NCBI RefSeq assembly: GCF_002865985.1
Contig: NZ_LNDD01000003.1
Location: 248,001 to 312,000, forward strand
From: Thermotoga sp. SG1
GTDB taxonomy: Bacteria > Thermotogota > Thermotogae > Thermotogales > Thermotogaceae
Direction of reading: 5' to 3'
Length of the DNA: 64,000 nt
A model generated the notes under the pieces. The model did not search any database. It was given only the letters and a program-made list of their open reading frames with translations, and was not told the origin of the DNA. The translations under genes were made by a program, and so were the position numbers. Positions 1,947 through 46,039 of this stretch are shown here, one piece after another (within the stretch, counting starts at the first letter, position 1; each line of letters opens with the position of its first letter).

Positions 1947-2539
1947 GTGAGGTCCTTCACCACCCTGAGTGTGGCCTTTGCAACGGCCTTCAGAAAGTCT
2001 CCCTCAAGTGGGGCAACACCCACTTCTGTCCTCTCCTTTTCGTCGTCCTGAACGGTGAGATGAACCAGGACGAACTCCTTTCCGGCAAGGAAGACCCTTT
2101 GAACGTCGTCCACCGAAACAGGTGAGTCGACGTTGAAAGCCTCTATGACCGCTTCTCCAACGAGTCTTGGAAGATTCGTTGAAGTTCCCGCTCCAACGGA
2201 TTCACCGACCAGTTCTTCGTCTTCGAAGAGGTTGTTTATCGTAACCCTCACCTGCTTTTTTCTGTCAAGGCTTTTTACCTCGATGGAAGAGATTTCGTAG
2301 GACTGAGAAGGAGAGAACCTTCCCTGACTGAGCTGGGCCACACTGATGATCCTTCTGTCCAGTTTCATTCCAAGGGATGCGAGTGCCACGGTTTCAATGT
2401 CCCGAACTATCTGCTTTGGATTTCTGGAAGGATCCGCTATGACGTGGATCTCCCTTGGCTGGCCGTCTTCTTCTATCACCTTCACAGAGATGACACCGGA
2501 AATCTTCGATATGACATCTTCCAGAGTCTTTGCACTCAT
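1943..2539 (-). CDS. Conserved protein of unknown function, longer tandem paralogue
   Basis: I do not recognise this 198-residue protein. Its C-terminal half (from about residue 75) is clearly homologous to the adjacent upstream gene; both have a GAGT(S/K)(T/S)NLPRL(L/V)GEAVI core and a LAGKEFV(L/F)VH(L/V)T strand. The extra N-terminal part (about 1-70) has an alternating beta/helix pattern ending in DRRIISVAQL. No signal peptide or membrane segment is seen, so it is probably cytoplasmic. I chose the ATG at 2539 because GGGGGGT lies upstream; an in-frame GTG at 2554 is possible. It lies 33 bases behind its paralogue and is probably co-transcribed. Its stop overlaps the convergent aminotransferase stop. 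Confidence 0.75.
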   Translation of the reverse strand: MSAKTLEDVISKISGVISVKVIEEDGQPREIHVIADPSRNPKQIVRDIETVALASLGMKLDRRIISVAQLSQGRFSPSQSYEISSIEVKSLDRKKQVRVTINNLFEDEELVGESVGAGTSTNLPRLVGEAVIEAFNVDSPVSVDDVQRVFLAGKEFVLVHLTVQDDEKERTEVGVAPLEGDFLKAVAKATLRVVKDLT

Positions 2540-2572
2540 CGAAATACCCCCCACTCGATACGTTCTTACCTA

Positions 2573-3046
2573 CTATTGTACTATATCTGACAGAGCATCT
2601 ATCACGGAAGAGATCACTGAACTCAAAAAATCTTTTTCCAGAAGGGAAATTCCTATCTTCCATCTTTCTTTACCATCTTTGAAGAAGGTGACGTGTACAA
2701 AGACGAACTCTTTTCCAGCAAGAGAAACGGTTTTTATGTCGTCTATTGAGATGTCTTCTTCGATGTTGAAGGCGTCTATCACTGCCTCTCCGAGAAGTCT
2801 TGGAAGGTTACTCTTCGTTCCCGCTCCCTCGCTCCTTCCTGAGATCTTCTCTCCATCGGAACTCTTCAGCACGATTTCCACACGGTACTTCTTTCCGCGA
2901 GACTCTATTTTGAAACTATCAAGATAAAAAGATTTTTCTACTCTCTGAGAAGTCGAAAAATTCCTCGAAAAGATCTTCAGTGAGCTTTGATCGATGTAAA
3001 CGACTTCTCCGCTTCTTTTTATGACAGGAATTTTCTCCACATTCAT
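2573..3046 (-). CDS. Conserved protein of unknown function, shorter tandem paralogue
   Basis: This 157-residue protein of unknown function is a paralogue of the downstream gene. The shared region covers about residues 40-155 and includes the NLPRLLGEAVIDAFN and LAGKEFVFVHVT segments. It lacks the paralogue's N-terminal domain and begins instead with a short basic stretch. No signal peptide or transmembrane helix is visible. The ATG at 3046 follows a GGGGGG ribosome binding site. It is the first gene of a two-gene minus-strand unit that diverges from the flagellar operon across an 80-base gap. The shared domain looks like a small alpha/beta fold; any function would be a guess. Confidence 0.75.
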   Translation of the reverse strand: MNVEKIPVIKRSGEVVYIDQSSLKIFSRNFSTSQRVEKSFYLDSFKIESRGKKYRVEIVLKSSDGEKISGRSEGAGTKSNLPRLLGEAVIDAFNIEEDISIDDIKTVSLAGKEFVFVHVTFFKDGKERWKIGISLLEKDFLSSVISSVIDALSDIVQ

Positions 3047-3126
3047 GCCCCCCAGTCTATTTTATCATCTCATAGGAAAACGGCGAGTTTCCATAGAAGT
3101 ATGGAATCGAGGGAGGTAGATGCACT

Positions 3127-4041
3127 TTGCCTAGAAGAAGAAAAGGTTTCTTCGTGGCCTTTCTTGTAACACTTCTTGTTCTCATAATTCTCTTTATGTA
3201 CGGCTACATCTCTTTTGAGATCAACAGGATGTACGGTGGGAGGATGTCTCCCTTCGAAGACTGGAGGAGCTATATAGCGTTTCTTGCCTCCAAGGTGCCT
3301 TTCCTGAAAGACAGAATTACTTACCAGCCGCTCAGGGCAGAAAACCCTGCCGAGTACTACTCCAGGATCTATCAGCGGTACATAGAGATCTACACGCAGA
3401 AGATAGAGGAACTCACCAGAAAAGAAAGGGAAATAGAAGAAAAGATGAAGGTGTTGGAGACTCAGAAAACAGTCGTCGACAGAACGCTCGAGGAAGTTCA
3501 ATCCCTGAAGAGTCAGTTGATCGAAGAAAAGAACAGACTGGAGTCCTACAAAAAGCAGGTTGATGATCTCATAAACGTGCTTTTGAACGCAGATCCAAGG
3601 AACCTCGCAAACACTCTGAACAACGTGGATGACAAAACACTCGCAGTGATATTCAAGAGGTCAGATCCCACCTACGCTGGTGAGTTTCTGGAGGCCCTCT
3701 CGGGTGTGAATCCTCAGAAAGCTGCCAGGGTTATGGAAATGATGGTGGGAGTGGAGAGCACCATAGAAAGACTGGAATCTCTCATGGAACAGGCAAAGAG
3801 TTCGATGGAGGAGATGACGAAGAAGGAGACGCAGTTGTTCTCAAGGGAGACGTACCTGAAGGTTGTGGCGGATGCTCTGAACAACGTCTCGCCTGATGTG
3901 GCCGTTGAGTTTTTGAAGAAAGAAAACGTGGATCCCGAAACTTTGAGGATCATCCTTTCCATGATGGACAGGGAACGTGCTTCCGCCTTGGTTCAGTACA
4001 TCGTACAGAACGCGATGGAACTTCTGGAGGAGAAAGAGTGA
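3127..4041 (+). CDS. MotE/YlxF-like flagellar protein (MgtE N-terminal-like domain)
   Basis: This 304-residue protein has one N-terminal transmembrane helix (about residues 8-26), a long coiled coil (about 85-150), and then two MgtE-N/FliG-middle-like helical repeats: the segment with LANTLNNVDDKTLAVIF and a degenerate second copy near the C-terminus with VAVEFLKKENVDPETL. This matches YlxF and MotE, which sit next to fliK in other bacteria; MotE acts as a chaperone for the stator protein MotC. The start is TTG behind GGGAGGT; a nearby ATG at 3120 reads into a stop at once. It opens the flagellar operon and overlaps fliK by 4 bases. The flagellar role is inferred from domain and position. Confidence 0.75.
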   Translation: MPRRRKGFFVAFLVTLLVLIILFMYGYISFEINRMYGGRMSPFEDWRSYIAFLASKVPFLKDRITYQPLRAENPAEYYSRIYQRYIEIYTQKIEELTRKEREIEEKMKVLETQKTVVDRTLEEVQSLKSQLIEEKNRLESYKKQVDDLINVLLNADPRNLANTLNNVDDKTLAVIFKRSDPTYAGEFLEALSGVNPQKAARVMEMMVGVESTIERLESLMEQAKSSMEEMTKKETQLFSRETYLKVVADALNNVSPDVAVEFLKKENVDPETLRIILSMMDRERASALVQYIVQNAMELLEEKE

Positions 4042-35990: not shown

Positions 35991-36697
35991 TTGAAAAGGG
36001 TGTCTTTCCTGGTTCTTTGAACATGGCCATAGACAGTCTGATGGCAAAATGGGTGTGGGTTGAAAAGAGGCCGTTTTTCAGGATATACGGTTGGAAAAAT
36101 CCGACAGTTTCTCTAGGAAGATTTCAGAAAGAAGATGGTTTGAGAATACCAGAAGGTGTGGATTTTGTGAGAAGACCATCTGGCGGTCGGGCGGTTCTTC
36201 ACCACATGGAGATCACATACTGTCTTGCCGTTCCAAGAGGAAATTCCTTCGGTGAACTGTCTGTTCTTGAGTTTCACAGACTGGTTCATAGTGTGATAAA
36301 GGATGCCCTTCGTGAATTGGGTGTTCCCGCGGTACTCTCAGATGGAAAGCGTGGAAATACCGCATTCTGCTTTGATGCGTCTTCGAAATACGAAATTGTG
36401 GTCGATGGAATGAAGATCGTCGGAAGTGCCCAGTTCAGAACGAAAAATGCCATCGTTGAACACGGTTCGATCGTTCTGAAACAGAGCAAAAAGCTTTTGA
36501 GAGAGATCTTTGGAGAAAGCGTTCTCCAGGTGGGAGGTCTTCTGGAGATGTACGATGTTGATGTGGTTCTTCTGGAAAAAACACTCGTGAGAAGTTTTGA
36601 AAAGCTTTTTGGTCCTTCTGTTCGAATACAGCTGAGTGATGATATGTTGAAGGAAGCACACGAGCTTTCTGGATTCTTCGAGATGAGGAGGAGATAG
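35987..36697 (+). CDS. Lipoate-protein ligase A / biotinyl-lipoyl transferase family protein
   Basis: This 236-residue protein belongs to the LplA/BPL fold. The diagnostic RRPSGGRAVLHHMEITYCL with the nucleotide-binding region and GSAQFRTKNAIVEHGSIVL with the lipoyl-binding lysine context are present. I annotate GTG 35987, which overlaps the rsmG stop, but it has no good Shine-Dalgarno; AGGAGGG lies 30 bases upstream, better placed for an in-frame ATT at 35969 that would add six residues resembling the usual first strand. The reaction (lipoylation or octanoyl transfer) is not resolved. Confidence 0.83.
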   Translation: MIEKGVFPGSLNMAIDSLMAKWVWVEKRPFFRIYGWKNPTVSLGRFQKEDGLRIPEGVDFVRRPSGGRAVLHHMEITYCLAVPRGNSFGELSVLEFHRLVHSVIKDALRELGVPAVLSDGKRGNTAFCFDASSKYEIVVDGMKIVGSAQFRTKNAIVEHGSIVLKQSKKLLREIFGESVLQVGGLLEMYDVDVVLLEKTLVRSFEKLFGPSVRIQLSDDMLKEAHELSGFFEMRRR

Positions 36698-36698
36698 T

Positions 36699-37367
36699 TT
36701 GGGAAAACTCATCGTTGTGGGAACACCCATAGGGAATCTGGAGGACATCACCATCAGGGCTTTGAAAACGCTCAGAAGTGTTGATTTGATACTCGCAGAG
36801 GACACCAGAAGAACGATGGTACTTTTGAACAAGTATCGAATAAAAAAACCCCTTCTTTCCTTCACTGATAAAAACTCAAGAAGAAGGATAAAAGAAGTCC
36901 TTCCACTCCTGAAAGAAGGAAAGACCGTGGCACTTGTGAGTGATGCAGGTATGCCAGTGATTTCGGATCCCGGGTACAATCTCATAGAGGAGTGCTGGAA
37001 AAGCGGAATAGAGGTGGATGTGGTACCAGGACCCAGTGCGCTGACCAGTGCCGTTGCCGTGAGTGGTTTTCCCGGGTCCAAATTCATCTTTGAGGGTTTT
37101 CTTCCACGCGGGAAGAACAGAAGAAGACTTCTCAGAACGCTGAAAGAGGAGAAAAGGCCCATCGTCTTTTTCGAATCTCCAGAGAGACTCATCTCCACTC
37201 TGAAGGACATTCTCGAGATACTGGGAGATCGGGAAATATTCATCGCCAGGGAGATGACCAAAATGCACCAGGAGTTTTTCAGGGGGAAAGTGAGTGAGGC
37301 ACTCGAGCACTTCGGGAAGAAGGAAATCCTTGGCGAAATCACGGTGATACTCTCTGGAAAGAGGTGA
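36699..37367 (+). CDS. rsmI: 16S rRNA 2'-O-methyltransferase RsmI
   Basis: RsmI/YraL (222 residues) methylates the ribose of C1402 in 16S rRNA. It is a tetrapyrrole-methylase fold protein with the N-terminal VVGTPIGNLEDITIRAL signature, EDTRRTMVLLNKY, LVSDAGMPVISDPG and PGPSALTSAVAVSGF motifs. The length is slightly below that of E. coli because the C-terminal domain is short. The start is TTG behind GAGGAGGAGATAGT. It sits after the lipoate-ligase-like gene and rsmG, another 16S methylase. Confidence 0.94.
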   Translation: MGKLIVVGTPIGNLEDITIRALKTLRSVDLILAEDTRRTMVLLNKYRIKKPLLSFTDKNSRRRIKEVLPLLKEGKTVALVSDAGMPVISDPGYNLIEECWKSGIEVDVVPGPSALTSAVAVSGFPGSKFIFEGFLPRGKNRRRLLRTLKEEKRPIVFFESPERLISTLKDILEILGDREIFIAREMTKMHQEFFRGKVSEALEHFGKKEILGEITVILSGKR

Positions 37368-37371
37368 AAGA

Positions 37372-37803
37372 ATGAAACAACCATTCGAGAGGGTACTGAG
37401 GGAGATCTGTTTCATGGTGAAGGTGGAAGGAAGAAAGGTGCTGAAGGATTTTGGAATCACCCCTGCACAGTTTGACATCTTGCAAAAGATATACTTCGAA
37501 GGCCCGAAAAGGCCGGGAGAACTCAGCCTCCTTCTGGGAGTTGCAAAAAGCACCATAAGCGGCCTTGTCAAAAGACTGGAAACGGACGGTTACCTCACAA
37601 GGACACCGGACGCCACAGACGGAAGGGCTTATCTTCTGGACATAACCAAAAAGGGAGAAAAAGTCATAGAAAAAGTCATAGAAAGAAGGGAGAACTTCAT
37701 AGAAAAGATCACGAGTGAACTTGGACAAGAAAAAGCCGAAAACATTCTAAGGATTCTCAAAGAACTGAAAGACATCATGGAAAAGAATTTTTCCAAACAG
37801 TAA
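37372..37803 (+). CDS. MarR-family transcriptional regulator
   Basis: This 143-residue winged-helix protein has the MarR layout: an N-terminal dimerisation helix, recognition helix in LSLLLGVAKSTISGLVKRLE, the wing GYLTRTPDATDGRAYLLDITKKG with its conserved DGR, and C-terminal dimer helices. It ends 60 bases before the envelope cluster and could regulate it or the upstream unit, but no operator is obvious. It does not carry a cysteine sensor motif. It probably responds to a small ligand. Confidence 0.92.
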   Translation: MKQPFERVLREICFMVKVEGRKVLKDFGITPAQFDILQKIYFEGPKRPGELSLLLGVAKSTISGLVKRLETDGYLTRTPDATDGRAYLLDITKKGEKVIEKVIERRENFIEKITSELGQEKAENILRILKELKDIMEKNFSKQ

Positions 37804-37863
37804 ACTCTATCTTCATGAGGTGTTTTCAAGGATGCTTTAAGGTTGAAGAGGGAGGTGAAGGTG

Positions 37864-39081
37864 TTGAAGAGAATCTTCCTTGCTGGGCTGTTGATCATCG
37901 CCCTTTCCCTGGCTGGCCAGGACATAAAAGATGTGGAACCTGACTCGCCATTTTTTGAAGCTGTGAAGTACGTTGTGGATTCAAAACTCATGGAACTCGA
38001 TGAAAACGGAAATTTCCGGGGGGCTCTTCTGGTCACAAGATACGATATAGCACAGTACATATACAGGCTCGTTATGAGATTCGAATTGGAAAAGCTCAGG
38101 GAAAAGATCTCCCTCTTGGATGAACTCGATATCATCAAGGCAGCCACCATAGCACTGGATGAGAGGACAAAGAAACTAGAAGAGGACTACAAATTAATGG
38201 ATACTAGGATAGAAGATGTGATGTCGAGAATAACCTCCAGCGCGAGTGACCTTTCTGAGCTGGAGGTAAAGGTTAACTCCCTCGAAGATGCTTACAGGAA
38301 TCTTTCTCTTGCTTTTGCCAGTTTCAAGCAGGAAACAGGAGGATTTGACACGGAGATATTGAGAAGAATAGACACAGTTGAAAAGAGGTTGCAAGAGCTT
38401 GAGAAGATTTCCGGTGAACATTTTTCCAGGTTAGGAGTAATAGAGGATAGCCTGAAAAGAGCAGAAACCATGCTCTCAAATTTAGAAGAGACGGTCACAA
38501 AACTTGGGACCGAAACACAGAATCTTCTTGCCTGGAAGAAGGATGCAGGTGGTGATATTCTCCTCCTGAAAGGAAAGGTGGAGAGTCTGACAAAGCACCT
38601 TAACGAGACTACAGAGAATGTAAAATCGCTCTCTTCGGATCTTGTGAAATTGAGGGAGGTGCTCCTTCAAAACATCTCGGATGTCTCTGGTAGAACATCC
38701 AGCCTGGAGGCAAAGCTGGCAGATCTTGAAAACGAAATCTCTCAGGCTTCTGAGAGAATACTCGATCTTGAAAGCAAATTAGCGACAGTTGAGAAGGGGC
38801 TAGAAACGTTGTCTTCTCGCACCTCGAACCTGGAAAAGGCACAGGTGGAATACCAGATGGCTGAATCCAGTCTGGAAAGGGAAGTGAAGGATCTCAAACA
38901 GCAGGTTGCCGCTCTTTCGGACAGATTGCAGAGTGTTTCATCGGACGTGAGAACGTTGACTCAGAAACTTGCAGAAGAAGAGAAGAAAACTCAGGAAATT
39001 CCTGTCAACACGAATCTGTTGATGATGATCGGTGTGGGAGCACTTGCGATCGTACTGGGAATCTTACTGTTATCAAGGTGA
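37864..39081 (+). CDS. Omp-alpha-like envelope protein: SLH domain, coiled coil, C-terminal membrane anchor
   Basis: This 405-residue protein begins with a signal peptide (MKRIFLAGLLIIALSLA), then a single SLH-type domain (about 20-80, with FFEAVKYVVDSKLMEL and VTRYDIAQYIYRLV), a very long coiled coil (about 85-375) rich in heptad Leu/Ile, and a C-terminal hydrophobic helix (about 385-403). This is the architecture of Thermotoga Omp-alpha, the rod that spans the periplasm between wall and toga. The SLH end would bind cell-wall polymer and the tail the outer sheath. I chose TTG at 37864 behind GGAGGTGAAGGTG; a TTG at 37843 is also in frame. Confidence 0.82.
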   Translation: MKRIFLAGLLIIALSLAGQDIKDVEPDSPFFEAVKYVVDSKLMELDENGNFRGALLVTRYDIAQYIYRLVMRFELEKLREKISLLDELDIIKAATIALDERTKKLEEDYKLMDTRIEDVMSRITSSASDLSELEVKVNSLEDAYRNLSLAFASFKQETGGFDTEILRRIDTVEKRLQELEKISGEHFSRLGVIEDSLKRAETMLSNLEETVTKLGTETQNLLAWKKDAGGDILLLKGKVESLTKHLNETTENVKSLSSDLVKLREVLLQNISDVSGRTSSLEAKLADLENEISQASERILDLESKLATVEKGLETLSSRTSNLEKAQVEYQMAESSLEREVKDLKQQVAALSDRLQSVSSDVRTLTQKLAEEEKKTQEIPVNTNLLMMIGVGALAIVLGILLLSR

Positions 39082-39085
39082 TAGG

Positions 39086-39844
39086 ATGGTGAGAGGAATT
39101 GCTTTTGCCGCTGGAGGTGTCAAAGGAGCGGCTCATCTTGCGCTCCTTGAGAGAACGGGCGACGTCTTCGATGTAGTGACAGGGTCATCCATTGGCTCGA
39201 TCGTTGGGGCTCTGTATGCCCTGCACGGAGATCCCAGCATAGTCAGGGAGATCACCTTCTCCATCATGAAAAAGCACCTTCAGGATTTGAAGAAGACTGA
39301 GAGTGAAGGTACGTGGAGAGGGATATTCCAGAGGTCACTTTTCAAAGCGGATATTCTGTTTTCTGTTCTCAAAGAGGTGTTTGGAAGAAAGAAGTTTTCC
39401 GATTGCAGGAAGAAACTGGGAGTTGTGGTCTTCGACACGGAGAACATGGAGTCTCTCCTGGTAACAGAAGGTTTCCTCATAGATGCGGTTGTTGCAAGTA
39501 GTTCCGTTCCAGGCTACTTCGAGCCAATCTGGCTAGGAGGAAATCCCGTCCTGGACGGGGGTGTGCTTTCTCCAACTCCTGTGTCACAGGCCAGAGACCT
39601 GGAAGCGGATTTTGTCGTTGCGTCCACCTTCAGCAGAAAAAAGGGCGAAAAGTTCAAGAACCACTTTGAGATGTTCTTTGCAATGGACAGGTGGAAGGAG
39701 ATCATACTGGAACAGGAAGAGCTCTCTCAAGCAGACTTTGTGGTGGTTCACAACGTGAACGAGTCATGGAACGAGTTCGAAAAGTACTATGAAATTTACA
39801 AAAAAGCCCTCGAAGATTTGAAAGGGGTGAAATGGCCCTGGTAA
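39086..39844 (+). CDS. Patatin-like phospholipase with intact catalytic dyad
   Basis: This 252-residue protein is a patatin-family lipid acyl hydrolase. The oxyanion motif AGGVKGAAHLALLE, the nucleophile S35 in GSSIGS (GxSxG) and the dyad aspartate D157 in VLDGGV are all intact. No signal peptide is present, so it is predicted to act in the cytoplasm or at the inner membrane. The ATG at 39086 lies 4 bases after the SLH gene. It overlaps the degenerate patatin gene by 13 bases, implying co-production. Lipid substrate unknown. Confidence 0.88.
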   Translation: MVRGIAFAAGGVKGAAHLALLERTGDVFDVVTGSSIGSIVGALYALHGDPSIVREITFSIMKKHLQDLKKTESEGTWRGIFQRSLFKADILFSVLKEVFGRKKFSDCRKKLGVVVFDTENMESLLVTEGFLIDAVVASSSVPGYFEPIWLGGNPVLDGGVLSPTPVSQARDLEADFVVASTFSRKKGEKFKNHFEMFFAMDRWKEIILEQEELSQADFVVVHNVNESWNEFEKYYEIYKKALEDLKGVKWPW

Positions 39845-40590
39845 TTTCTTTCGGTGGAGAAAACGGAGCGTACCTAGGAAGCATTGGTGTGTTGAAGGCA
39901 TTGAAGGAGATAGGAGAAGATGCTGTAGCGGTGAGATGCTGTGGTATATCCTCTGTTCCGTGTGGACTGTTTTTCCTCACGCGCTCTTCCAACAGGACAT
40001 ATTCCATCTTGGTGAAAGAATGGAAGAATCTGGAAAAGCTTCTGAGTCCTTTTTTTTCAAGAGGAATCGACAGGTTTTCCATGTTCGATGTTCTCAGAAT
40101 TTTGATGAGAGTGGGAGATAGCCTGAACGGAGTACGAAACCACGAACGCCTTTACAGATACGTGGATAAACTCTTTCCTGCACAGAAGATACCGAGAGGT
40201 CTTGAAATCTGGGTTTTCGATCTTCTGGATGGTAAAGAGGTGGTGTTTGGAGAAGGAAGTGACCTGAGAGAGGCGGTGAAAGCATCTCTTTCTTTTCCTA
40301 TTCTCTATCGGCCATACAGAGATAGGTACGTTTCACTCCCATGGGTTACCGGTGTACCAGAAGGGGATGTGATCGTGTCCTTTGAACTGAAAGAAGAAGA
40401 GCATTCCTACCGAAACGCCCTCGATTACCTCTTTCTCTCAACGATCGCACGAACAAAGAAGATAGAAAAGACAAGAATGGAAAGAGCAAAACAGGTTTTG
40501 AAAGTGGAATGTTCTTCCTTTTCTCCTGTGCTCACCACACGACGAGCTTACGAAAGAACCTTGAAGCTTTTTGGGAGGGTGGAGAAATGA
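39832..40590 (+). CDS. Degenerate patatin-like protein (catalytic motifs lost)
   Basis: This 252-residue protein is similar in length and opening to the upstream patatin. It keeps the oxyanion-like SFGGENGAYLGSIGVLKAL, but the nucleophile region reads GISSV (residues 38-42; the final glycine of GxSxG is lost) and no DGG/A motif is found in the later half (VSLPWVTGVPEGD stands in its place). It is therefore probably a non-catalytic partner. The start overlaps the upstream gene by 13 bases, and it ends in ATGA with the OstA-like gene. Homology to patatins is inferred from the N-terminal motif. Confidence 0.72.
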   Translation: MALVISFGGENGAYLGSIGVLKALKEIGEDAVAVRCCGISSVPCGLFFLTRSSNRTYSILVKEWKNLEKLLSPFFSRGIDRFSMFDVLRILMRVGDSLNGVRNHERLYRYVDKLFPAQKIPRGLEIWVFDLLDGKEVVFGEGSDLREAVKASLSFPILYRPYRDRYVSLPWVTGVPEGDVIVSFELKEEEHSYRNALDYLFLSTIARTKKIEKTRMERAKQVLKVECSSFSPVLTTRRAYERTLKLFGRVEK

Positions 40591-41204
40591 AGAAGTTCGT
40601 AGTGATGCTTCTTGTTTTTGTGAGTTTTTTGGTGTTTCCGAAAACGATACACATAAAGGCGGATTTTGTGAAACCTTCCGAGGAAGAGATAGAATACTCC
40701 GGAAACGTCTTTCTTGAAATAGAAGAAGAAAGTTTCACATTACAGGCGGAAAGTCTTGTTGTAAGAAAACTTTCTGGAAAGTGGAGAATCACAGAGGCGA
40801 GTTCTTCTGTGACTGTAACACTGGAAGACGGTGAGATCTCTGGAGAGAGTCTTGTGTACGATGTGGAAACAAGGGAAGGAACCATCACAGGAAACGTAGT
40901 TGGTAACTTTCAGGATAGATCCAGTACGGAAACCATCCTCGTCAATTGTCATGAACTCGTGTTCAACCTAGAAGAGAATGTTTTCATCGGATCTGGAAAC
41001 GTACAGATCAAAAGGGGAGCAGTGGAGGCTTTCTGCGGGAGTTTCGTCTACAGAAGAAGTGATGGGATCATAGAACTTGTTGAAGAGGTTGATTTGAACG
41101 ACACTGAGAAGAACCTCAAGATGAAGGCCGACAAAGTGGTTATGGATCTTGAAGCTGACACGATGGAAGCAATGTCCGTTTCTGTCACTCTAGAGGTGGA
41201 ATGA
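40587..41204 (+). CDS. OstA/LptA-like periplasmic protein
   Basis: This 205-residue protein has a signal peptide (about 1-17) and then a repeated beta pattern typical of OstA/LptA jelly-roll folds: IEYSGNVFLEIEEESFTLQAESLVV, then DGEISGESLVYDVETREGTITGNVVG and a third turn with ENVFIGSGNVQIKRGAVEAFCG. LptA carries LPS across the periplasm, but Thermotoga has no classical LPS, so another outer-envelope lipid or polymer may be handled. It is last in the SLH-patatin-patatin unit. The fold assignment is from repeat pattern. Confidence 0.75.
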   Translation: MKKFVVMLLVFVSFLVFPKTIHIKADFVKPSEEEIEYSGNVFLEIEEESFTLQAESLVVRKLSGKWRITEASSSVTVTLEDGEISGESLVYDVETREGTITGNVVGNFQDRSSTETILVNCHELVFNLEENVFIGSGNVQIKRGAVEAFCGSFVYRRSDGIIELVEEVDLNDTEKNLKMKADKVVMDLEADTMEAMSVSVTLEVE

Positions 41205-43795
41205 TGAAGGTCATCACCACGCACAGATCACCGGATTTCGATGCTTTTGCTTCATGCGTAGCGGCAAAAAAACTTTTTCCCGATCACACCATCGTGTTGC
41301 CAGGGAATCCAGCAAGGAACCTTTCCGAGTTTCTGAAGATATACTCCGATCGATTTGAATTTCTCTGGGAGCATGAGTTTGATGGCGACGTTTCGGAACT
41401 CGTCATCGTCGATACTTCATCCCTCGATCGAATACCAGAAAGGATCAGAGAAAAGATACAGAACACGAAAATAACGGTCTTCGATCATCACGTTGAGGAA
41501 AGTACTCTCAACGGTGTAGTGGATAGAGTGGGAGCCACCATCACCCTTCTTGTTGAGCTTCTCATGAAAGAGGGAATCTCCATAGATGCTACTGAGGCCA
41601 CCCTTTTCATGATAGCGCTCTACGATGATACAGGAAATCTTCTTTTTTCTTCGACAACTCCGCGTGATCTTGAAGTTGCGAAATTTTTGCTGGAAAACGG
41701 AGCAAAGCTCGACGAGGTAGCACTCTACACGAAAGAAGAACTCACATCGCAGCAGATGGAACTACTGAACACGCTACTCGAAAACGCTCGTGAATACGAA
41801 GTGAACGGTATTCCCGTGACCATATCAACAGCTGAGTATGAAGGTTTCTTGGGTGGTTTGGGGCTGGTTGTGAGCAAGGCATGGGAAATGAGTGGTAGCG
41901 AGACGTTCATTGCAGTCGTGAAGATGGGGAAAAAGGTGTACGTTGTGGGAAGAACGTCTTCTCCTGATGTGGATCTTGGTTCGCTGATGAAAAGTCTTGG
42001 AGGAGGAGGCCATACAAGGGCAGCGTCAGCAACGATCGTCGGAAAAGAGCCAAAAGAGGCCTTCAGTGAGATCTTGAGCAGATTGCACGATCACGTGGTG
42101 CCCGTTCTTAGAGCAAAGGATATCATGTCGTCTCCTGTGAAGGTTGTTCTTGCAGACATGACGATCAAGGAAGTGAACAGATTGATGGAACAGACAGGTC
42201 ACAACGGTTTTCCTGTGGTGGAAGGAAACAAACTGGTGGGTATTGTGACGAAAAAAGCAGTTGACAAGGCGATGAACCACAACCTGGGAGACAGACCTGT
42301 GAAATCTATCATGACATCAAATCTCGTGGTAGCAACACCCGACACCCCTGTGACGAAACTGAGAGAACTCATGGTGGAAAACGCCATAGGCAGAATACCC
42401 ATATTGGAAAACGGTATTCTCGTTGGAATCGTGACCAGAAGTGATGTACTGAGGGCAATATTCGGAAAGCCGTTCAAGAAGTACGTAAGACCTGTCTTCA
42501 GGGAAAATGGTCAGATCTTCAGGAACGTAACGGATCTTCTGATAAAACGTGTAAAGCCACAGCTACTCAACCTCTTCAGACTCCTTGGAAAATTTGGAGA
42601 CGAGGTGAACATGCCAGTTTACGCTGTGGGCGGATTCGTGAGAGATTTGCTCCTTGGGATAGAGAACCTCGACATAGACATTGTGGTGGAAGGAAACGCT
42701 ATGGAATTTGCGGAGTACGCACGAAGGTTTTTGCCTGCAAAGTTGGTAAAACACGAAAAATTCATGACCGCTTCTCTTTTTTTAAAAGGTGGTTTGAGAA
42801 TAGACATCGCCACCGCCAGGATGGAATACTATGAATCTCCTGCCAAATTGCCGGACGTTGAGATGAGCACGATAAAAAAAGATCTCTACAGGCGTGACTT
42901 TACGATAAACGCTATGGCCATAAAGCTAAATCCTGGTGATTTCGGATTGCTCGTGGATTTCTTCGGTGGGTACAGAGATCTGAAAGAGGGCATCATTCGC
43001 GTTCTACATACCCTCAGTTTTGTGGACGATCCCACCAGGATTCTCCGTGCCATCAGGTTCGAACAAAGGTTTGATTTTCGCATAGAAGAAACAACAGAAA
43101 GGTTGCTGAGACAGGCGGTCGAAGAAGGGTACCTCGAGAAAACAACGGGTGCCCGCATAAGACAGGAGATAGAGAAGATACTCGAAGAAAAGAATCCGCT
43201 GAAATCCATCAGGAGAATGGCCGAATTCGACATAATAAAGCACCTTTTTCCGAAAACCTACTACACACCCGCCATGGACAAAAAGATGGAAAACCTCTTC
43301 AGGAACATACCCTGGGTAGAGGAAAACTTCGGTGAAGTCAATAAATTCTACGCGGTCCTTCATGTATTCCTTGAGTTTTACGACGAGGAAAACTGGGAGA
43401 AGGTAAAAAAGAGATACTCTCTCAAGAAAAATCTGATAAATGAGGTAAAACATGTGGAAAAGAGTGCTCTTGCTCTTTTAGAAATGCTCAAAGAGGGTGT
43501 GCCGACGTCTTTTATATATCCTCTCGTAAAGGGTGTCAGCCGTGAAACGATATGCCATTTCCTGGCTTACCTTGAGGGAGAAGAGGAGGAGAGATTCAAG
43601 GCTCATCTACTCAGGATCAGAGACACAAAGCTTGAGAAGGTAGATGGGAACTATCTCATCGAAAAGGGTATCAAATCCGGTAAAATAATTGGAGAGGTGT
43701 TGGAGAGAGTCCTCATGAAGAAGCTCGATGGTGATACAAGAGATGAGGAAGAGATACTGAGAGAAATTCTTGCATCACTGGAAATGGAGGGATAG
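41201..43795 (+). CDS. DHH phosphoesterase - CBS - tRNA nucleotidyltransferase fusion protein
   Basis: This 864-residue protein has a DHH/DHHA1 phosphoesterase part (about 1-300; THRSPDFDAF, VIVDTSSLD, VFDHHVEES, GGGGHTRAA), two CBS repeats (about 305-430), and a class II CCA/poly(A) nucleotidyltransferase (about 460-860) with VGGFVRDLLLGIENLDIDIVVEG and RRDFTINAMAIKL. The same fusion occurs in Aquifex and Thermotoga relatives and is thought to add CCA or A to tRNA ends. The DHH part could be a Nrn-type nuclease or pyrophosphatase; CBS suggests adenosine-nucleotide control. It overlaps the previous gene in ATGA. Confidence 0.9.
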   Translation: MMKVITTHRSPDFDAFASCVAAKKLFPDHTIVLPGNPARNLSEFLKIYSDRFEFLWEHEFDGDVSELVIVDTSSLDRIPERIREKIQNTKITVFDHHVEESTLNGVVDRVGATITLLVELLMKEGISIDATEATLFMIALYDDTGNLLFSSTTPRDLEVAKFLLENGAKLDEVALYTKEELTSQQMELLNTLLENAREYEVNGIPVTISTAEYEGFLGGLGLVVSKAWEMSGSETFIAVVKMGKKVYVVGRTSSPDVDLGSLMKSLGGGGHTRAASATIVGKEPKEAFSEILSRLHDHVVPVLRAKDIMSSPVKVVLADMTIKEVNRLMEQTGHNGFPVVEGNKLVGIVTKKAVDKAMNHNLGDRPVKSIMTSNLVVATPDTPVTKLRELMVENAIGRIPILENGILVGIVTRSDVLRAIFGKPFKKYVRPVFRENGQIFRNVTDLLIKRVKPQLLNLFRLLGKFGDEVNMPVYAVGGFVRDLLLGIENLDIDIVVEGNAMEFAEYARRFLPAKLVKHEKFMTASLFLKGGLRIDIATARMEYYESPAKLPDVEMSTIKKDLYRRDFTINAMAIKLNPGDFGLLVDFFGGYRDLKEGIIRVLHTLSFVDDPTRILRAIRFEQRFDFRIEETTERLLRQAVEEGYLEKTTGARIRQEIEKILEEKNPLKSIRRMAEFDIIKHLFPKTYYTPAMDKKMENLFRNIPWVEENFGEVNKFYAVLHVFLEFYDEENWEKVKKRYSLKKNLINEVKHVEKSALALLEMLKEGVPTSFIYPLVKGVSRETICHFLAYLEGEEEERFKAHLLRIRDTKLEKVDGNYLIEKGIKSGKIIGEVLERVLMKKLDGDTRDEEEILREILASLEMEG

Positions 43796-43796
43796 A

Positions 43797-45344
43797 ATGA
43801 GTCTGAAAGAGAGGCTGGAAGATTTGAAGAAAAGAGAAAAAGAGATAGAACAGGGTGGAGGACCAGAAAAGGTTGAGAAACAGCATCGCGCGGGGAAACT
43901 TACCGCATGGGAGAGATTGGAATTACTCCTTGATCCTGGATCCTTTGTGGAGATAGACAAACTCGTTGAACACAGAAACACCTACTTTGGACTGGATAAG
44001 ATGAGACTTCCAAGAGATGGTGTCATAACAGGAATAGGGGAGATAAACGGAAGAAAAGTGGCCGTTTTCTCCCAGGACTTCACCGTGATGGGTGGATCTC
44101 TAGGAGAGATGCACGCAAAGAAGATAGTGAAACTGCTCGATCTTGCTCTGAAGATGGGAATTCCTGTTGTGGGAATAAACGATTCAGGTGGTGCTCGTAT
44201 ACAGGAGGGAGTGGATGCGCTCGCTGGATACGGTGAGATATTCTTCAGGAACACCCTAGCATCGGGGGTGATTCCACAGATCACCGTGATAGCGGGGCCC
44301 TGTGCTGGGGGAGCCGTTTACTCTCCCGCACTCACCGATTTCATCGTGATGGTCGATCAAACAGCGAGGATGTTCATAACGGGCCCAAACGTGATAAAGG
44401 CGGTGACCGGTGAAGAGATCTCCCAGGAAGACCTCGGAGGTGCTATGGTTCACAACCAGAGGAGCGGGAACGCCCACTTTCTGGCAAACGACGATGAAAA
44501 GGCGATGGAACTCGTAAGGAAACTTCTCTCTTATCTTCCTTCCAACAACGCAGAGGAACCCCCCATCGAAAACCCAGATCTAGAACTTGAAATGTCCGAA
44601 GATATCCTAGATGTTCTACCCGACAATCCGAACAAGGGCTACGACGTGAGAGAAATTATCAGAAGGGTAGTCGATCACGGTGAATTTTTCGAGGTTCAAC
44701 CGTACTTTGCAAAAAACATTGTGATCGGTTTTGGGAGAGTGCAAGGAAGAGTGGTAGGAATAGTGGCGAATCAGCCTTCAATCCTTGCTGGTGTTCTGGA
44801 CATCGATTCCTCAGATAAGGCGGCTCGTTTCATAAGGTTTCTCGATGCTTTCAACATTCCAATATTGACCTTTGTGGACACGCCCGGGTACCTCCCGGGT
44901 GTTGCACAAGAACACGGTGGTATCATTAGGCACGGAGCAAAACTGCTTTACGCTTACAGCGAGGCAACATCTCCAAAGATCACGGTGATTCTGAGGAAAG
45001 CCTATGGTGGAGCGTACATTGCCATGGGTAGCAAACACCTGGGAGCCGATATGGTCCTTGCTTGGCCCACCGCCGAGATCGCCGTCATGGGACCAGAAGG
45101 TGCAGCGAACATCATTTTCAAAAAAGAGATTGCATCTTCTTCAAATCCTGAAGAAACCAGGAAGAAACTCATTGAAGAATACAAAGAGCAGTTTGCAAAT
45201 CCCTACATAGCAGCGAGCAGGGGATACGTGGATATAGTGATAGATCCGCGGGACACAAGAAAGTACATAGCGAAGGCTCTTGAAGTATGTGAAACGAAAG
45301 TTGAGTACAGACCGAAGAAGAAGCATGGAAACATCCCACTGTGA
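43797..45344 (+). CDS. Acyl-CoA carboxyltransferase subunit (methylmalonyl-CoA decarboxylase alpha / propionyl-CoA carboxylase beta)
   Basis: This 515-residue protein is the carboxyltransferase of biotin-dependent acyl-CoA carboxylases and decarboxylases. Typical segments are GKLTAWERLELLLDPGSF, VVGINDSGGARIQEGVDALAG, IAGPCAGGAVYSPALTDF, FVDTPGYLPGVAQEHGGIIRHGAKLLYAY and AEIAVMGPEGAANI. With the two following genes it resembles the MmdA-D-C arrangement of sodium-pumping methylmalonyl-CoA decarboxylase. The beta subunit is not here, so a plain carboxylase cannot be excluded. The ATG lies one base after the preceding stop, behind GGAGGGATAGA. Confidence 0.92.
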   Translation: MSLKERLEDLKKREKEIEQGGGPEKVEKQHRAGKLTAWERLELLLDPGSFVEIDKLVEHRNTYFGLDKMRLPRDGVITGIGEINGRKVAVFSQDFTVMGGSLGEMHAKKIVKLLDLALKMGIPVVGINDSGGARIQEGVDALAGYGEIFFRNTLASGVIPQITVIAGPCAGGAVYSPALTDFIVMVDQTARMFITGPNVIKAVTGEEISQEDLGGAMVHNQRSGNAHFLANDDEKAMELVRKLLSYLPSNNAEEPPIENPDLELEMSEDILDVLPDNPNKGYDVREIIRRVVDHGEFFEVQPYFAKNIVIGFGRVQGRVVGIVANQPSILAGVLDIDSSDKAARFIRFLDAFNIPILTFVDTPGYLPGVAQEHGGIIRHGAKLLYAYSEATSPKITVILRKAYGGAYIAMGSKHLGADMVLAWPTAEIAVMGPEGAANIIFKKEIASSSNPEETRKKLIEEYKEQFANPYIAASRGYVDIVIDPRDTRKYIAKALEVCETKVEYRPKKKHGNIPL

Positions 45345-45353
45345 GGTGAGTCG

Positions 45354-45653
45354 ATGGTTCAAATATTCGTTTTCGGTATCGTGGCTGTTTTTCTGGTTTT
45401 TCTGGTACTGTTTTTCTTCTCTGTATTTTTGAAATTTTTCTCAAAACGCGAGCGACCCACCACCGTGGAAGAAAAGCCACGTGGAATAGAAGAAGAGGTC
45501 ATTGCGGTGATATCGGCGGCCGTTGCACAGGTGATTGAGGGAGAATACAGGATCGTCTCTATAAAGCGAAAGACAGACAGACGTAGGTTTGAGGCATGGA
45601 AAAAGAGCGGATGGAGGAGGAGAAGATGGTCAGAAGGTTCCGAGTGGTGGTGA
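45354..45653 (+). CDS. OadG/MmdD-like small membrane subunit
   Basis: This 99-residue protein has one N-terminal membrane helix (about 4-29) and a tail with EEEVIAVISAAVAQVIEGEYRIVSIKR, the hallmark of OadG/MmdD delta-type subunits that hold the decarboxylase together. The C-terminus (WKKSGWRRRRW) also fits. It lies 9 bases after the carboxyltransferase gene and overlaps the biotin-carrier gene by 28 bases. The short length and low conservation make the context important for the call. Confidence 0.82.
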   Translation: MVQIFVFGIVAVFLVFLVLFFFSVFLKFFSKRERPTTVEEKPRGIEEEVIAVISAAVAQVIEGEYRIVSIKRKTDRRRFEAWKKSGWRRRRWSEGSEWW

Positions 45654-46039
45654 ATGGAAAAGAATACATTGTTGAAGTGGAAGAGATTGGAAATCCCAAG
45701 AAGACTCAGGAAAGGCCGAAAACAAATCCTACAAATACCAGATCTTCCACTGTGGCGGTAGAGAAAAAAGAGATACGGAAGCCAGAGCCAGAAGTCGTTG
45801 AAAGAGAGGAAACATCAGGTGGTGAAGAAAAACTCGTTAAAGCACCAATGGCGGGAATCGTTCTGAAGATCCTGGTGAGAGAAGGACAGGGAGTGAAGGT
45901 TGGTGACAAACTGCTTGTTTTCGAAGCCATGAAGATGGAAAACGAACTCCAGTCGGAGTTTTCCGGTACGGTGAAGGAGATACTTGTGAAAGAAGGAGAG
46001 AACATAGAAACCGGCCAGGTGCTCATGAAGATTGTGTGA
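45626..46039 (+). CDS. Biotin carboxyl carrier protein of the decarboxylase module
   Basis: This 137-residue protein carries biotin on the lysine of EAMKMENEL, in a C-terminal biotinyl domain (about 70-137) beginning VKAPMAGIVLKILV. The N-terminal part (RRFRVVVNGKEYIVEVEE) is the usual carrier cap, joined by a Pro/Lys/Glu linker. I chose ATG 45626 because GGAGGAGGAGAAG precedes it; two earlier in-frame ATGs (45596, 45611) lie inside the OadG gene without such a signal. It is the last gene of the three-gene module. Confidence 0.93.
   Translation: MVRRFRVVVNGKEYIVEVEEIGNPKKTQERPKTNPTNTRSSTVAVEKKEIRKPEPEVVEREETSGGEEKLVKAPMAGIVLKILVREGQGVKVGDKLLVFEAMKMENELQSEFSGTVKEILVKEGENIETGQVLMKIV

Follow-up and report, generated by a model that had tools for sequence, protein, structure and literature searches.

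The window analyzed here is a 64,000-nucleotide stretch of the genome of Thermotoga sp. SG1 (NCBI RefSeq assembly GCF_002865985.1, contig NZ_LNDD01000003.1, positions 248,001 to 312,000). At 37864-41204, it contains four closely packed genes that encode a coiled-coil protein with an SLH domain (the rod), a patatin (pat1), a patatin-like protein devoid of the catalytic motifs (pat2), and an LptA-like protein of the OstA type (ostA). A preliminary description made from the sequence alone had assigned these genes to the toga, the outer sheath of the cells, and its gene calls hold. Here we report that pat1, pat2, and ostA are linked well beyond the genus and that the gene set consists of two separable modules. 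Our strongest finding concerns genes outside the window, namely parts of the lipopolysaccharide (LPS) transport system Lpt, including an LptF/G-LptD-like fusion, in a phylum without any LpxC or TamB match. No new kind of protein is encoded here; both the gene arrangement and the fusion are variants for which the literature searched contained no description. The features of the four genes are as follows (window coordinates):

37864..39081, forward strand: rod, 405 amino acids (aa), Omp-alpha-like tether with SLH domain, coiled coil, and C-terminal transmembrane segment, as predicted by Pfam and hydropathy
37924..38040, forward strand: SLH domain of the rod, aa 21-59 (Pfam PF00395, 25.0 bits)
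39016..39072, forward strand: hydrophobic helix at the C-terminus of the rod, about aa 385-403 (Kyte-Doolittle 2.88)
39086..39844, forward strand: pat1, 252 aa, patatin-like hydrolase with intact catalytic motifs and, by hydropathy, without signal peptide (Pfam, 118 bits)
39188..39190, forward strand: codon of the catalytic Ser35 of pat1 (GxSxG, invariant column)
39554..39556, forward strand: codon of the catalytic Asp157 of pat1 (DGG, invariant column)
39832..40590, forward strand: pat2, 252 aa, pseudo-patatin with the patatin fold and without the catalytic motifs (model and alignment)
40587..41204, forward strand: ostA, 205 aa, predicted secreted LptA-like beta-taco protein (profile and model)
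40587..40643, forward strand: segment that probably serves as signal peptide of ostA, about aa 1-19 (hydropathy at aa 5-23 is 2.18; the model has low confidence at the N-terminus)

We searched 103 Thermotogota genomes with profiles of pat1, pat2, and OstA and used the coordinates of the matches to count adjacent genes. A contiguous arrangement of pat1, pat2, and ostA on the same strand was detected in 47 of the 103 genomes, which is far above chance. These comprised all seven genomes of the window's genus, all 20 of family f3 (including Thermosipho and Fervidobacterium), and 20 of the 21 of family f10 (Marinitoga). The two patatin genes were adjacent in 63 genomes, with 69 pairs in total, and a scan of the genome contigs with a single peptide pattern returned 12 loci, all of which belonged to Thermotogota. 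In relatives, the genes are part of a larger block with the order MarR-PEGA-rod-[pat1-pat2]-ostA. In many of these relatives, MarR and the rod are separated by the gene for the PEGA-domain protein (for example, L077:4910-6319 and L039:4162-5583), which is missing from this block in the window's genus. On its 3' side, the block is followed by unrelated housekeeping genes that depend on the lineage (serS and an RNA methyltransferase gene, miaA and a clamp-loader gene, or the tRNA nucleotidyltransferase gene). The linkage thus reaches well beyond Thermotoga, but the four genes are not the one fixed set that the preliminary description had presented: we rejected an indivisible set, as it is broken in f2, f9, f11, and Thermosipho-like genera. 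The genes rather represent two separable modules, an envelope module and the patatin pair, which are joined in several families.

The rod was confirmed as an Omp-alpha-like SLH coiled-coil protein. Its SLH domain exceeded the Pfam cut-off of 20.8 bits, matches to coiled-coil families spanned aa 72-382, and the N-terminus was hydrophobic in the hydropathy analysis. The SLH domain was also found in the rod relatives of f2 and f3 and was marginal in f10. The rod is predicted to be located in the toga and to tether the wall to the outer sheath. Three SLH proteins above the cut-off are encoded in the genome, of which the rod is the third. Besides the rod of the window, a gene for an SLH coiled-coil rod lies at L096:5657-6868 (forward strand), where it precedes the LptF/G-LptD-like gene described below by about 3.5 kb and is followed by ruvB. 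A candidate rod gene beside ostA in family f8 was rejected, as it encodes an aminotransferase.

The assignment of one patatin with intact and one with lost catalytic motifs was also borne out. The motifs GGVKG, GSSIG, and DGG are all intact in pat1, and across the fetched loci DG[GA] was present in 42 of 42 and GxSxG in 40 of 42 pat1 sequences; the two without GxSxG are taken to be frames that were cut at the end of a locus. With its intact Ser-Asp motifs, pat1 is predicted to be an active lipid hydrolase. The Patatin match of pat2 (21.8 bits) stayed below the Pfam cut-off of 27.7, and its AlphaFold model, with a predicted local distance difference test (pLDDT) score of 80.4, showed a complete patatin fold that matched PlpD with a Z-score of 21.6 over 221 residues. 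In a joint alignment, the oxyanion loop, the nucleophile elbow, and the Asp loop were lost in all 22 pat2 sequences, with DGG being replaced beside a conserved proline. No genuine GxSxG or DG[GA] was found in the 44 pat2 proteins of the fetched loci; a single GxSxG match was positioned elsewhere in the protein, and a single DG[GA] match was not placed in its full context. A serine follows the elbow strand in the pat2 of Thermotoga and f3, few columns are conserved, and no single replacement residue is common to the families. What can be said most safely is that pat2 has lost the acid and oxyanion loops and that the position of the serine is not conserved. As the ratio of nonsynonymous to synonymous substitution rates (dN/dS) was about 0.09-0.11 where synonymous sites were unsaturated, pat2 is under purifying selection, and a decaying pseudogene could be rejected, in agreement with the intact relatives. 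The constant place of pat2 beside an active paralogue suggests that it is a pseudoenzyme partner of pat1, and the two probably form a heterodimer.

Hydropathy, which was the sole basis for this comparison, revealed an N-terminal hydrophobic signal in the rod and OstA and none in pat1 and pat2. The patatins are therefore probably cytoplasmic, and their site of action should be the inner membrane, on its cytoplasmic side, rather than the sheath. This runs counter to the simplest version of the earlier proposal of a system that remodels or delivers a lipid to the sheath: the LptA-like nature of OstA is in line with it, but the patatins themselves probably do not work on the sheath.

Several additional observations concern the patatin pair. 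Second pat1-pat2 pairs without ostA exist at G082:C3:163017-164497, G078:C1:8873-10362, G086:C1:1762660-1764206, G019:C1:981794-983283, and G021:C1:1813888-1815449. We rejected the idea of a hidden pat1 beside the lone pat2 of two f1 genera (g2 and g3), as the neighbors are housekeeping genes (folD, xseA, and a D-Ala ligase gene). In Marinitoga lauensis (L106:10770-12206), pat2 and ostA are split into several frames while the relatives are intact, probably through a sequencing error.

OstA is an OstA/LptA-type beta protein, as had been assumed. Its model (pLDDT 88.6) is a beta-taco, with the LptD N-domain (Z 19.0, 168 residues), LptA (Z 17.6, 118 residues), and LptC (Z about 15) as structural matches, and Foldseek agreed with this result. 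The LptD_N match reached 28.3 bits, scored on the longer frame 40509-41204, and the family profile retrieved LptA sequences of the PDB with a best E-value of 1.5e-4. As OstA scored only 25.2 bits against the curated LptA equivalog (TIGR03002), whose cut-off is 71.7, we refer to it as LptA-like. The OstA profile matched in 99 of the 103 genomes, including matches inside the LptF/G fusion.

If OstA serves as an LptA, the rest of the Lpt system should exist, and we therefore searched the genomes for it. LptF/G was found in 100 of the 103 genomes, in 90 of which the open frame had at least 850 aa. The corresponding gene of the Thermotoga sp. SG1 genome (L096:10329-13622, forward strand; G000 contig C5, about 98.8-102.1 kb) lies outside the window and encodes 1097 aa. 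LptF/G at aa 44-388 is followed by a seventh hydrophobic segment that resembles a cleavable signal peptide, an LptD_N-type domain, a TTC region with the LptD-like signature TTC...PHY...P.FY.P, and a C-terminal phenylalanine. All 18 other long fusions that were examined contained the TTC region, which is followed by a variant in f10, and each ended in phenylalanine or methionine. NCBIfam LptD models matched the LptD-like region of some members (1e-10 and 8.8e-9), and the profile of the fusion family matched the LptD structure 8h1r weakly and in register (E 0.021). In genome G005 of family f7, two separate LptF/G-type genes in tandem take the place of the fusion (L124:910-2094 and 2113-3243), and no LptD-like region was found beside them. 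An LptB equivalog was identified in the genome of the window, with 305 bits at a cut-off of 240 (L130:3053-3760, forward strand; G000 contig C4, about 106.6 kb). The gene before it looks Skp/OmpH-like by eye. No report of an LptF/G-LptD fusion in Thermotogota was found in the open-licence literature.

With respect to the transported lipid, neither LpxC nor TamB was detected in any of the 103 genomes, although the positive controls worked in both cases, and other AsmA-like proteins were not searched for. The cargo of OstA should therefore not be classic LPS. Glycolipids have been described for Thermotoga maritima (PMC8788747) and are one cargo candidate, which is speculation. The Mla system has been reported to be absent from Thermotogae (PMC10665443), and a survey found Thermotogae to lack nearly all tested outer-membrane genes except bamA (PMC8871954). 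Sequence divergence and the fusion may explain why the Lpt parts described here differ from the outcome of that survey.

The four genes are flanked by the following genes:

37372..37803, forward strand: gene for a MarR-family regulator, orthologue of T. maritima TM0710 (PDB 2a61 match, E 8.9e-76)
41201..43795, forward strand: tRNA nucleotidyltransferase gene, which shares 4 base pairs (bp) with ostA and is found as a neighbor in Thermotoga only

The MarR gene is the head of the conserved block in many relatives. It had been missed in the preliminary description, as had the PEGA protein of the relatives and the probable Lpt route of OstA with its parts elsewhere. The tRNA nucleotidyltransferase gene was not judged to be part of the module. 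Its overlap with ostA shows that close spacing of genes is no guide to the limits of the module, and we therefore rejected the overlaps as proof of an envelope-specific unit. The reported overlaps of 4-13 bases could be confirmed from the sequence for pat1/pat2 (13 bp) and pat2/ostA (4 bp), but the rod and pat1 genes are separated by a 4-bp gap (39082-39085). When 36600-41400 was scanned for promoters and terminators, the numbers obtained were close to chance. Further downstream, at 43770-46039 (forward strand), genes for a carboxyltransferase subunit-like, a small membrane protein-like, and a biotin carrier-like protein follow by eye. For the T. maritima genes TM0710-TM0714, no report was found in the open-licence literature.

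We propose that the operon serves toga biogenesis and joins two modules. One would combine a tether with the LptA of an Lpt route that operates without LPS, and the other would be a patatin/pseudopatatin pair that tunes membrane lipid. Our judgement of this proposal as a whole is evenly balanced. In the envelope module (MarR, PEGA in most relatives, rod, and ostA), the rod would tether the wall to the outer sheath, and OstA would form the soluble middle part of a lipid bridge that connects LptB-LptF/G with the LptD-like part and conveys a non-LPS lipid to the sheath. The remainder of this route would be provided by LptB and the LptF/G-LptD-like polyprotein, which are encoded elsewhere. In the second module, the dead pat2 would control or position pat1 at the inner membrane, and both could thereby match lipid turnover to lipid export and toga growth. 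In a wider form, which we put forward tentatively and consider rather doubtful in its entirety, Thermotogota would export a non-LPS lipid, such as a glycolipid, to the toga via a complete, rebuilt Lpt system that consists of LptB, an LptF/G-LptD polyprotein cut at its internal signal peptide, and the LptA of the operon. The lipid supply would be set by a cytoplasmic patatin/pseudopatatin heterodimer that is co-expressed with LptA and the SLH tether.

Several observations weigh against a toga biogenesis operon of this kind. Family f2 has the order MarR-PEGA-rod-ostA without the patatin pair, some Thermosipho-like genera of f3 have pat1-pat2-ostA without a rod at the locus, and in f9 the pair is located away from ostA. 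The Pfam model of the LptD barrel (PF04453) stayed below its cut-off in all genomes, and LptD is a likely but putative identity of the fused region, based on weak profile matches and a motif. The first and the last of the three gene orders are also what would be expected from the main rival, in which an unrelated housekeeping patatin pair is on the same transcript: the rod and OstA would serve the envelope, the patatins phospholipid turnover in the cytoplasm, and the linkage would result from shared expression or common descent. The pair is apart from ostA also in f11 and in the second copies of f3, and the lack of signal peptides fits this explanation as well. However, 47 genomes from three families have pat1, pat2, and ostA in contiguous order despite differing downstream neighbors, and we regard two independent modules as possible, though on the improbable side.

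Alternatively, OstA could have a structural or chaperone role in the toga and share no more than the beta-taco fold with Lpt carriers. The missing classic cargo, with lipid A synthesis not being detected, would agree with such a role, as would the score below the curated LptA cut-off. On the other hand, LptF/G in nearly all genomes, the LptB of the same genome, and the LptD-like region fused to LptF/G mean that a complete bridge could assemble, and Borrelia retains Lpt without LPS according to a published study (PMC10353723). A purely structural OstA is therefore unlikely in our view. Even less probable is a pat2 that is still an enzyme and uses other residues. Its complete fold, the strong purifying selection, and the serine near the elbow in Thermotoga and f3 would be compatible with activity, but all three catalytic loops are lost throughout the alignment, few columns are conserved, and the families have no replacement residue in common.

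These findings bear on the questions of how the toga receives its lipids and whether it represents a true outer membrane. Nearly all Thermotogota genomes encode LptF/G and an LptA-like protein, most of them with an LptD-like region in the LptF/G gene, and no lipid A synthesis was detected. If the proposal of a rebuilt Lpt system is correct, this would be the main recognized inter-membrane lipid route of Thermotogota, as TamB was not found and Mla is reported to be absent. By tying an LptA-like gene to a tether and to an active/inactive patatin pair, the operon provides named genes for a direct test of lipid transport to the toga. In addition, pat2 clearly exemplifies a bacterial pseudophospholipase that has been conserved for a long time.

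Among known systems, pat1 resembles PlpD and RssA, with which it shares the intact Ser-Asp motifs; the pat1 profile matched PlpD with 140 bits, and the match to RssA reached 85.8 bits (cut-off 272). PlpD, a type Vd protein, carries a POTRA domain and a beta-barrel, whereas pat1 has neither, and pat1 differs from both proteins in lying beside a dead paralogue in most families. The rod, with its SLH domain, coiled coil, and hydrophobic C-terminus, is similar to the two OmpA homologues of T. maritima that were listed by Petrus et al., OmpA1 (Omp-alpha, TM0477) and OmpA2 (TM1729) (PMC3387000). It differs from them in being the third SLH protein of its genome and in being encoded in an operon with the patatins and OstA. 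With the Lpt system, the genome shares the LptB and LptF/G homologues and the beta-taco fold of OstA, which is nearest to LptA and the LptD N-domain. The differences are that the lptA-like gene of the window is located with a tether and a patatin pair, that LptF/G is fused to an LptD-like region in Thermotogota, and that LpxC, and hence a source of LPS cargo, has no match in this phylum. A linkage of Lpt genes to a tether or to patatins is not described for Borrelia burgdorferi in the available part of the report cited above (PMC10353723), but this diderm without LPS has kept its Lpt orthologues and, on that basis, is the closest precedent for an Lpt system without LPS.

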